A DNA stretch of 64,000 nt. Source: Christiangramia crocea. GTDB lineage: Bacteria; Bacteroidota; Bacteroidia; Flavobacteriales; Flavobacteriaceae. A model generated the notes under the pieces. That model saw nothing but the letters and a program-made list of their open reading frames with translations, had not been told where the DNA came from and ran no database searches. A program made the translations under genes and the position numbers. Positions within the stretch are counted from its first letter, which is position 1. Every line of letters starts with the position of its first letter. The DNA is taken from positions 1 through 64,000 of the forward strand of contig NZ_JAJSON010000007.1 in NCBI RefSeq assembly GCF_022410465.1, written 5' to 3'. Shown here in pieces: positions 61,592 through 64,000 of the stretch.

Positions 61592-61611
61592 AAAGGGGAT
61601 TATTCCCCTTT
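61592..61611. terminator. hairpin after the AraC gene
   Basis: AAAGGGGA and TCCCCTTT form an 8-bp stem with a TTAT loop, about 40 bp past the AraC stop. T runs are short on the plus strand and five bases on the minus strand, so the terminator may be weak or bidirectional. Downstream to 61731 no gene was seen. Confidence 0.6.
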
Positions 61612-61763
61612 CCAAGCAAGCATCTTTCCAGTACTTTAGTATCAGAAATTCACCTCCCTTTTTATCCCCCCATAAAATATTAAAAATTTAGTTCCGGATA
61701 TAAAACCTGGAAATATAAAACCCCCATATATAAATCATCATTCATCAATCAAAATTTTTCATC

Positions 61764-61901
61764 ATGACAGCTTTTTCAAAAATCATCGAAAACTTTAGTT
61801 CTTTAAACGACGGCAATCTCACTCATCACAGAGCCTTTTTAAATCAACGGTCTGGAAACGGAAGAAGTTGCTGGTACAACCGGAGAAAATTCGGAATCTA
61901 A
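61764..61901 (+). CDS. tandem 45-residue small protein, copy 1
   Basis: A 45-residue basic, His- and Arg-containing peptide: it begins MTAFSKIIENFSSLNDGNLT, carries HHRAF, and ends SCWYNRRKFGI, with one Cys and one Trp close together. No signal peptide or membrane span is seen. Compared with copy 2, four of five differences are silent third-position changes and one changes Ala24 to Thr, which argues for selection on the protein. There is no Shine-Dalgarno, only an A/T-rich leader, which is normal here. I recognise no family. It could be a functional small protein, a peptide precursor or a leader peptide. Confidence 0.55.
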   Translation: MTAFSKIIENFSSLNDGNLTHHRAFLNQRSGNGRSCWYNRRKFGI

Positions 61902-61943
61902 TTTCATTAAAAATCATCATTCATCAATCAAATTTTTTTCATC

Positions 61944-62081
61944 ATGACAGCTTTTTCAAAAATCATCGAAAACTTTAGTTCTTTAAACGACGGAAACCTC
62001 ACTCATCACAGAACCTTTTTAAATCAACGGTCTGGAAACGGAAGAAGTTGCTGGTATAACCGGAGAAAATTCGGAATTTAA
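61944..62081 (+). CDS. tandem 45-residue small protein, copy 2
   Basis: Same length as copy 1 and identical except Thr24 for Ala. Its leader differs from that of copy 1 by small changes, including a one-base length difference, whereas the coding frame has no indels. Both copies lie on the same strand as the upstream AraC gene and the downstream terminator at 62431, so one transcript could carry both. Confidence 0.55.
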   Translation: MTAFSKIIENFSSLNDGNLTHHRTFLNQRSGNGRSCWYNRRKFGI

Positions 62082-62126
62082 TTTCATTAAAAATCATCAT
62101 TCATCAATCATCAAAATTCATCAGTC

Positions 62127-62225
62127 ATGAAATCGCATATCAAAGTTAACATCAAACAACGGCCAAGGGGTATGTATTACGGTTTAATCCTTAGAAGGCT
62201 GGCAGAAACAGTGATTATCAGGTGA
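62127..62225 (+). CDS. third small frame of the repeat locus
   Basis: A 32-codon frame (MKSHIKVNIKQRPRGMYYG and on to AETVIIR) preceded by the same CATCAATCA leader as the two 45-residue peptides but with a different product, strongly basic and with hydrophobic ends. Its last three codons and stop fall inside the long RNA stem that follows, so it may be a leader peptide or not translated at all. Confidence 0.3.
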   Translation: MKSHIKVNIKQRPRGMYYGLILRRLAETVIIR

Positions 62226-62371
62226 AAATCCGGCATTTAAAACTGAGGAGCAAGACGGGGAAATCATTCATCAATCAGATTTTTAACTTGAAAGACGTTC
62301 TTTCCAGACCCGGACAGTAAAAACCTCAGATTGAATTAGTCAAAGCCGAGTGCCGGATTTTCATTAGATAA
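62215..62371 (+). ncRNA. candidate structured RNA element
   Basis: TGAAAATCCGGCA (62223-62235) is perfectly complementary to TGCCGGATTTTCA (62351-62363). The outer TTATC/GATAA (62215-62219, 62367-62371) extend the stem across a 3x3 internal loop. Inside it CTGAGG (62243-62248) pairs with CCTCAG (62324-62329), and GAAAGA-CGT-TCTTTC (62290-62304) forms a small hairpin. Nested helices over 157 bp suggest a folded RNA domain. A CATCAATCA copy sits in the interior. No known family recognised. Confidence 0.5.
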
Positions 62372-62430: not shown

Positions 62431-62466
62431 AGTACCCGGGTTCATCACCTCAGGGTACTTTTTTAT
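62431..62466 (+). terminator. intrinsic terminator of the repeat locus
   Basis: AGTACCC (62431-62437) pairs with GGGTACT (62453-62459), with a 15-base loop and a following TTTTTT run. It marks the end of a plus-strand transcript covering the tandem units and the structured region. Confidence 0.82.
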
Positions 62467-62552: not shown

Positions 62553-64000
62553 ATGAACATACAAATAAGAAAAGACCTGGGTATTATATTACTGGTCTCT
62601 ATTTTTGGCTGTAACAACAGCCCCGAAACTGTAAATGAAAATGAATCAATGAGTAATCCCTTATTATCAGAATGGAGCGGCCCTTATGAAGGTGTACCCG
62701 CATTCGACGAAATGAAAGTAGAGCTTGTGAAGCCTGCAATCAGGAAAGGCATGGAATTACATCTTGCCGAAATAGATAAAATAGCCGGCAACCCTGAGGA
62801 ACCAAGTTTTGAGAATACCATTGTCCCGATGGAAGAAGCAGGAAAAGAACTGGAACGAGCCTTTGTTTACTATGGTATTTACAGCAGTAATATTTCAAGT
62901 CCTGAATTTAGGGAAGTTCAAAAGGAACTAGCCCCCGAGATCTCAGAGTTCTATTCAAAGATCAGCCAGAATACAGAACTTTTTAAACGTATCAAAACGG
63001 TTTATGAGAACGCTCAGGAAGATTCGCTACCGGCACCAGAGCAACGAACCATAGAGCTTATTTATGAAGAATTTGCCATGCAGGGCGCTAACCTGAATGA
63101 AGAGGATAAGGAGCGCTATGCTGCAATAAATAAGGAACTGTCAGAACTATATACCAGGTTTTCCAATAATGTACTTGCCGATGAAGAAAACTATGTGATC
63201 TATCTCGAAGAGGATCAGCTTGGTGGTCTTCCCGAATCCTATATAAAATCTGCTGCCAAAGCAGCTGCCGACCGGGGGAAGGATGGAAAGTATGCGGTTA
63301 CCAATACCAGGTCTTCCATGGATCCTTTCCTAACCTATTCTACAGAAAGGGATCTCCGTGAAAAAGTTTGGAAAAATTATTACTCCCGTGGCGATAATAA
63401 TGATGAATTTGACAATAACGAGATCATTTCAAAGATCCTTAAATTACGGGATGAACGCGTAGAGCTTTTAGGTTATGATAATTATGCCCAATGGAGACTC
63501 CAGAACAGGATGGCTAAAAATCCTGAAAATGCAATGGATCTTATGATGAAGGTCTGGCCTGCTGCCCTTGCCAGAGTGGAAGAAGAAGTGGCCGATATGC
63601 AAAAGATTGCCGATGCTGAGGGTGCCAATATCACGATCAAACCCTGGGATTATCGCTTCTATGCTGAAAAAGTAAGGAAAGAAAAATATGATCTGGACAG
63701 TGAAGAGGTAAAACAATACCTGGAATTGGGAAATCTCACACAGGCCTTATTCTTTACAGCGGGAGAATTATTCAATTTCAATTTCACCCCTGTTGAAGAA
63801 GGGACTGTACCGGTATTCCATGAGGATGTAAAAGTCTGGGAGGTGACCGATAAGGATTCCGGAGAGATCATCGGCTTATGGTATCTTGACCCATATGCCA
63901 GACAGGGTAAAAGATCCGGAGCATGGGCTACCACCTATCGTGCATACACAAAACTGGAAGGAGAGAAACCTGTACTGGCTTCAAACAACTCCAATTTTAT
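62553..64000 (+). CDS. M3 family peptidase (Dcp-like) lipoprotein, partial
   Basis: The gene runs off the right edge; 482 codons are visible. The N-terminus is a lipoprotein signal (MNIQIRKDLGIILLVSIFGC, Cys20). Family M3 features follow: LLSEWSGPYEGVPAFDEM, then FENTIVPMEEAGKELERAF, YARQGKRSGAWATTYR, all typical of peptidyl-dipeptidase Dcp/oligopeptidase A homologues. The HExxH zinc motif lies beyond the window, so activity cannot be judged. Dcp removes C-terminal dipeptides; as a lipoprotein it would act in the periplasm. Confidence 0.93.
   Translation, partial: MNIQIRKDLGIILLVSIFGCNNSPETVNENESMSNPLLSEWSGPYEGVPAFDEMKVELVKPAIRKGMELHLAEIDKIAGNPEEPSFENTIVPMEEAGKELERAFVYYGIYSSNISSPEFREVQKELAPEISEFYSKISQNTELFKRIKTVYENAQEDSLPAPEQRTIELIYEEFAMQGANLNEEDKERYAAINKELSELYTRFSNNVLADEENYVIYLEEDQLGGLPESYIKSAAKAAADRGKDGKYAVTNTRSSMDPFLTYSTERDLREKVWKNYYSRGDNNDEFDNNEIISKILKLRDERVELLGYDNYAQWRLQNRMAKNPENAMDLMMKVWPAALARVEEEVADMQKIADAEGANITIKPWDYRFYAEKVRKEKYDLDSEEVKQYLELGNLTQALFFTAGELFNFNFTPVEEGTVPVFHEDVKVWEVTDKDSGEIIGLWYLDPYARQGKRSGAWATTYRAYTKLEGEKPVLASNNSNF

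Follow-up and report, generated by a model that had tools for sequence, protein, structure and literature searches.

Tandem small-protein genes in Christiangramia crocea with leader sites complementary to a conserved RNA element downstream of rpoD

Results

Organization of the locus

The window is the whole stretch of 64,000 nucleotides analyzed here, positions 1 to 64,000 of contig NZ_JAJSON010000007.1 of Christiangramia crocea. Close to its end, a run of small ORFs lies between a gene for an AraC-family regulator and a gene for an M3-family peptidase. The features are listed below; the box at 61632 is compared with the Bacteroidetes -7 box consensus TAnnTTTG as quoted in PMC7366714.

60537..61553, + strand: AraC-family regulator of 338 aa (Pfam HTH_18, 5.7e-18; named relatives in Gramella/Christiangramia)
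61594..61609, no strand: operator-like palindrome AGGGGATTATTCCCCT (genus-wide pattern counts; putative role)
61632..61639, + strand: TACTTTAG, candidate promoter box like TAnnTTTG (similar box in orthologous loci)
61738..61751, + strand: sRNA-complement site 1, TCATTCATCAATCA, ending 12 nt 5ʹ of the start codon (exact complement 17 nt)
61764..61901, + strand: 45-aa small protein, copy 1 (ORF and coding selection)
61917..61930, + strand: sRNA-complement site 2, ending 13 nt 5ʹ of the start codon (exact complement 16 nt)
61944..62081, + strand: 45-aa small protein, copy 2 (ORF and coding selection)
62097..62110, + strand: sRNA-complement site 3, ending 16 nt 5ʹ of the start codon (exact complement 14 nt)
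62127..62225, + strand: third small ORF of 32 aa with the C-terminus RRLAETVIIR (relatives in L035, L037, L038 and KN1008; pN < pS)
62220..62366, + strand: structured RNA with a long closing stem (fold z-score, covariation, further loci found by model R2)
62264..62277, + strand: sRNA-complement site 4, within the structured RNA (unpaired probability 0.83-1.0 at 12 of 14 positions and 0.13 at two)
about 62431..62465, + strand: terminator-like hairpin and T-run (read from the sequence)
62553..63998, + strand: M3-family peptidase, downstream neighbour, cut by the window end (Pfam Peptidase_M3, 2.2e-53)

The AraC gene upstream and the terminator downstream, both claimed in an earlier note on this DNA, were confirmed, the former by its Pfam match and the latter by a hairpin followed by a T-run. 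The hairpin was absent from an automated scan limited to loops of 3-8.

The same type of locus was present in five genomes of the genus (G000, G003, G009, G012 and G015), with the GGGG-CCCC palindrome, a box like TACTTTAG, one or two 45-aa genes, the 32-aa ORF, the structured RNA, the terminator-like hairpin and the M3 peptidase; the 32-aa ORF was not seen in G015. In G003, a gene on the opposite strand lies between the AraC gene and the locus, and AraC is not directly adjacent. Among five close relatives of the AraC gene, the peptide was present in Gramella sp. KN1008, G. jeungdoensis HMD3159 and Christiangramia oceanisediminis GC03-9, and was not seen in C. sediminis ASW11-100 or a Christiangramia MAG.

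Coding selection in the small ORFs

The earlier note had read two tandem 45-codon ORFs as genes under protein-coding selection, and this reading was borne out. Both ORFs lie within a 176-nt direct repeat that is 97% identical and spaced at 180 nt. Five differences were found over the 135 coding bases, four synonymous and one non-synonymous (pS 0.141, pN 0.009), the last visible in the translations as an Ala/Thr replacement. The leaders vary in the length of an A/T run, while the frames carry no indel. In a dN/dS-type comparison of six copies and orthologues of the 45-aa peptide, pN was below pS in all 15 pairs, the orthologues giving pN of 0.075-0.346 against pS of 0.514-0.84. A third small ORF (62127-62225), unmentioned earlier, follows with a similar leader; its four available sequences gave pN < pS in 6/6 pairs.

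No match was found in Pfam or NCBIfam. We concluded that the ORFs of the window are real tandem genes and that their tiny basic products belong to a marine flavobacterial family which has as yet no name.

The family and its arrays upstream of PBP1A

Searched with the 45-aa peptide, the C. crocea genome itself gave four matches, two in the window and two on another contig. At this second site, five small genes follow one another (33, 33, 31, 44 and 44 aa). Behind them come a terminator-like hairpin and, next, the gene for a protein whose Transgly and Transpeptidase domains mark it as a class A penicillin-binding protein. When weak matches were counted, 23 of the 24 genus genomes matched the 45-aa peptide at E<=1. 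Iterated profiles joined the matches into one family of two sizes, about 33 aa (..RKSFMNTEAN..RRRFA) and about 44/45 aa (..THRRPFLN..W..RR.YA). PBP1A was found downstream of the array in 22 of the 23 genus loci given, the exception being G012, which was represented by its window-type locus. The main home of the family in the genus (Christiangramia/Gramella) is a tandem array upstream of PBP1A, and the window is a second, sporadic locus. The proposal of a dedicated small-protein locus fits the window but was incomplete, since the usual site of the family is not beside AraC.

Coding selection was also evident in the arrays. Nine chosen 44-aa members gave pN < pS in 36/36 pairs (median pN 0.23, pS 0.72), and the first 29 codons were tightly held (median pN 0.10), the last 15 far less (0.46). 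One array member in G016 had no ATG at the expected place. An array of 29-aa peptides was seen in G003 (contig C2; L086, 3658-4221), with three identical copies and one nearly identical copy, which is consistent with concerted evolution.

In the family Flavobacteriaceae, profile A1 matched in 44/299 genomes at E<=0.1 and profile A2 in 17/299 at E<=0.05, the matches being mostly weak or partial. Clear matches outside the genus came from genera g32 and g112, likewise upstream of PBP1A; most others were weak. The 44/45-aa profile matched no PDB chain, and PHROGs gave one weak match of unknown function (E 0.026). As in the window, no curated small-protein family of Pfam or NCBIfam was matched.

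A conserved RNA element downstream of rpoD

The leader word TCATTCATCAATCA has an exact complement elsewhere in the same genome: the linker UGAUUGAUGAAUGA, which lies between a hairpin and a terminator just 3ʹ of rpoD. In most of the 23 genus genomes carrying TCATTCATCAATCA, one copy is this linker, read on the opposite strand. A model of the element (R1) found it in 23 of the 24 genus genomes, the missed genome being 67% complete, with one strong copy per genome, located after rpoD. Across the family, 216/299 genomes matched at E<=0.1 (195/249 of the good ones), and 83/299 had no match under strict filters. Across the order, 42/296 genomes matched at E<=0.01, of which 41 belonged to the same family and the remaining one was weak (E 0.0096).

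Loci were fetched for the 30 best-scoring matches. All 30 follow rpoD on the same strand and share CGTTTTTTGATTGATGAA. The 3ʹ arm of the first hairpin starts 22-125 nt after the rpoD stop codon. The full 14-nt linker was exact in 22/23 genus loci and 25/30 family loci. In 10/10 genus sequences, a CCCCGG/CCGGGG hairpin with a T-run, that is, an intrinsic terminator, was present; L199, of another genus, lacks the T-run.

A perfect TAnnTTTG box just before the hairpin was found at only 2 of 51 loci (L211 and L217), which leans towards processing from the rpoD mRNA. Looser boxes were seen at 23/50 loci, mostly in the genus form TATCTTGG, which overlaps the last rpoD codons. The alignment shows no variation in two of the three helices, and covariation in the element was not significant (2 pairs, reached by 32/500 shuffles). 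In the predicted fold, the linker is partly paired with the U-run. No convincing match, of the FopS/GibS kind or otherwise, was obtained in Rfam release 15. A second copy of the linker and terminator (TGATTGATGAATGA, then a GC-rich hairpin with a T-run) was noticed in L248 (G003:C80) and L250 (G012:C2:349838), where it stands after the apparent end of another ORF.

Pairing between the leaders and the rpoD element

The operon of the window contains four copies of TCATTCATCAATCA, one 5ʹ of each of the three ORFs and one in the structured RNA. The earlier note had recognized the shared leader; to this can be added that the leader carries an exact complement of the conserved element in the rpoD 3ʹUTR. 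The three leader sites were predicted to be mostly unpaired (means 0.92, 0.86 and 0.90). The 14-mer was present in 23/24 genus genomes, and a reversed control in 0/24.

When the linker served as seed, pairing at <= -14 kcal/mol was reached by 66 of 85 peptide leaders, compared with 4 of 294 control leaders, which precede long ORFs in the fetched loci and the window, and 1.06% of shuffled peptide leaders; array leaders share ancestry and are hence non-independent in these counts. The median pairing energy of 75 leaders was -15.1, against -5.3 for the reversed seed, and 0/200 shuffled seeds paired as well (lowest -10.9). The exact 14-mer stood in the peptide leaders of only four of the 24 genomes, G000 (3), G004 (2), G007 (2) and G019 (1). 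Pairing is less perfect in the leaders that lack it, and an exact 9-mer core was present in 40/75 leaders. At five orthologous window-type loci, the leaders paired at -14.2 to -18.0 without the exact 14-mer. That the repeated leaders of the window can pair exactly with a highly conserved tail of the rpoD RNA is suggestive of an RNA control circuit.

Seven leaders of homologues in other genera paired much like controls (-6.7 to -13.3). Pairing as an ancestral trait of the peptide family was therefore not supported; the peptides seem to have come under the rpoD RNA within the genus, the RNA itself being older.

A rival explanation is that the CATCAATC leader is merely a favourable translation-initiation context, homogenized by tandem duplication, with incidental complementarity to the rpoD 3ʹUTR. 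Start contexts in Flavobacterium are A-rich and Kozak-like (PMC6847099). This explanation would also agree with the few genomes that have the exact 14-mer in peptide leaders, and with the array leaders of another genus, which are also repeated but differ in sequence. We regard it as unlikely, because the 14-mer also occurs far from a start codon, at the site inside the structured RNA, where the next ATG is 236 nt away, because neither the reversed control nor the shuffled seeds reproduced the observation, and because the complement of the 14-mer is conserved after rpoD.

A structured RNA at the end of the operon

A structured RNA closes the operon, and some relatives have it at loci with no recognized peptide gene. 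The segment 62213-62375 folds at -47.6 kcal/mol (z -5.08). A model built from six loci (R2) gave three further strong loci, in G008, G018 and G023 (E 5.9e-10, 1.7e-8 and 1.3e-6), all between an AraC gene and an M3 peptidase, both named by resemblance. No peptide gene of the family was seen at these three loci, and the peptide was also absent at the RNA locus in G019, one of the six used for R2, and in G007. Hence, either the RNA was at this place before the peptide genes, or peptide loss occurred more than once. At E<=1, R2 matched in 24/24 genus genomes; most of these matches were weak and were taken as chance. Rfam matches to the window locus were below gathering scores and taxonomically implausible, and were likewise treated as chance.

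Covariation was found for the closing stem: in nine sequences it was paired in 91.1% of cells, 6 of its 14 pairs had changed on both sides, and its covariation score was reached by 0/500 shuffles. Site 4 had a mean unpaired probability of 0.60 in the local stretch; when the structured RNA is folded, all but two of its 14 positions are open.

These properties raise the reverse possibility, that the rpoD 3ʹUTR RNA is sponged by the peptide mRNAs and by the structured RNA, with the peptides themselves secondary. Such a sponge role, whether of the operon or of its structured RNA, is a rival to be taken seriously, as four sites lie in one transcript and the structured RNA stands between AraC and M3 peptidase genes in G008, G018 and G023 without a recognized peptide gene. 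On the other hand, purifying selection acts on the peptide frames, three of the four sites lie directly before start codons, and the 14-mer is not intact in the three peptide-less loci. We consider the reversed arrow quite unlikely.

The GGGG-CCCC palindrome

The pattern AGGGGAN{2,4}TCCCCT was found at 1-6 places in 23 of the 24 genus genomes, compared with 0-1 per strand for the reversed control. In seven genomes fetched at the site (G000, G003, G006, G009, G012, G015 and G018), the palindrome precedes short ORFs and membrane proteins, and a kinase gene farther on was in view in five of the seven. In the own genome, the kinase is of the HisKA_3 type and its neighbour is a NarL-type regulator. 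This regulator, whose own operon carries the same palindrome, possibly binds it. Since 10 of the 18 stretches fetched for the palindrome have their sites beside unrelated genes, the regulon reading rests on the recurrent kinase-operon sites. A role solely as a terminator was ruled out for G003, where two sites lie between divergent genes; a terminator meaning is kept open for palindromes that stand at the end of a gene, as at C7 of the C. crocea genome.

The short ORFs and membrane proteins by the palindrome, leading to the kinase gene where visible, were seen at L144, L146, L150, L153, L154, L156 and L159; three of them were searched against Pfam and gave no match. Genes adjoining these loci are presumably 5-oxoprolinase subunits.

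Discussion

Proposed control of the operon

On balance, we favour the reading that this is an operon of small basic proteins with two layers of control, a palindrome promoter and an sRNA from the rpoD 3ʹUTR that would block each cistron. Transcription would start from the promoter with the GGGG-CCCC palindrome, which may be bound by a NarL-type response regulator. Each cistron carries, 12-16 nt 5ʹ of its start codon, an exact complement of the linker UGAUUGAUGAAUGA, which belongs to the RNA element at the rpoD 3ʹ end. An sRNA released from the rpoD mRNA would pair at these sites and block initiation, and abundant rpoD transcript would then mean less peptide synthesis. The structured RNA would expose the same site largely unpaired and may serve as a further target or a decoy. 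The sequence analysis establishes coding selection, the distribution of the family, conservation of the element downstream of rpoD, complementarity at several sites, and covariation in the closing stem of the structured RNA. Expression of the operon, processing of the rpoD mRNA, repression and the direction of control are all predictions from sequence.

A broader proposal is that a family-wide master sRNA in the rpoD 3ʹUTR of Flavobacteriaceae couples transcription of the housekeeping sigma factor to post-transcriptional repression, and that the small-protein arrays of Christiangramia, with one site per cistron, and a separate covarying RNA evolved as its targets and sponges. We hold this to be possible, yet doubtful.

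As for the peptides themselves, our best guess is a role linked to the cell envelope, because the PBP1A neighbourhood is steady; this neighbourhood is the sole hint. That they are exported signals, bacteriocins or RiPP precursors, as short, basic, tandem and in places near-identical copies might suggest, is very improbable, given that no signal or Gly-Gly leader is visible in their sequences, that general domain searches recognized no modification or export gene among the neighbours examined, and that Pfam and NCBIfam gave no match.

Relation to known systems

sRNAs derived from 3ʹUTRs are a known kind in bacteria (PMC7398697). The candidate resembles them in being an RNA at an mRNA 3ʹ end, with a pairing stretch by an intrinsic terminator and predicted targets near start codons. 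It differs in that its host gene is the primary sigma factor of Flavobacteriaceae, its pairing stretch is conserved family-wide, and its predicted targets are tandem small-protein cistrons. Repression by FopS of Bacteroides works through pairing near the start codon of its targets, and one FopS member is 3ʹUTR-derived (PMC11697453). The FopS/GibS RNAs of Bacteroides thetaiotaomicron share with our candidate a single-stranded seed followed by a terminator hairpin and pairing near start codons; the rpoD element may differ from them, as it gave no match of that kind in Rfam release 15 and is present as a single strong copy per genome of the genus, after rpoD. Flavobacterium psychrophilum has Rfp18 and further conserved RNAs (PMC9723704), likewise flavobacterial structured RNAs with several stem-loops. 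The rpoD element may be identical with one of these Rfp RNAs or distinct from them. Among the open-licence papers found by the searches made, judged by titles and the starts of abstracts, none described an rpoD 3ʹUTR sRNA in Flavobacteriaceae.

What appears new here is the candidate rpoD-derived 3ʹUTR sRNA, with its family-wide pairing stretch and its predicted tandem small-protein targets; the kind of sRNA itself is known. If the proposed control is true, the primary sigma factor would be tied by base-pairing to the translation of a small-protein family. To our knowledge, few sRNA circuits are known in the phylum. The analysis yields a candidate sRNA open to experimental test, whose pairing stretch is conserved in most of the genomes examined from a large bacterial family. 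Further additions are a family of small proteins that lacks a curated name, and a structured RNA with covariation for which the window search gave no convincing Rfam match.

Occurrence of the pairing word at other genes

A short word of the pairing stretch permits target prediction. TTCATCAATCAAAA occurred 273 times in 149 family genomes, whereas the reversed control gave 20 occurrences. Among the 30 loci fetched, 13 were the rpoD element, and 7 of the 17 others had a start codon within 60 nt. Because some loci fall inside genes, this gives weak support for family-wide targets.

In L196 (G000:C26:115523), around position 2024, the 14-mer stands 5ʹ of a gene whose product reads as exported (MKTIIIYFALALF..). 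This gene adjoins a sigma-factor-like gene, and similar leaders were seen in several related genomes; the names come from reading the sequences, and two ORFs of this type searched against Pfam gave no match. In L281 and L304, from two other genera, TTCATCAATCAAAA stands 15 and 25 nt 5ʹ of genes whose N-termini read as outer membrane proteins of the TolC type.
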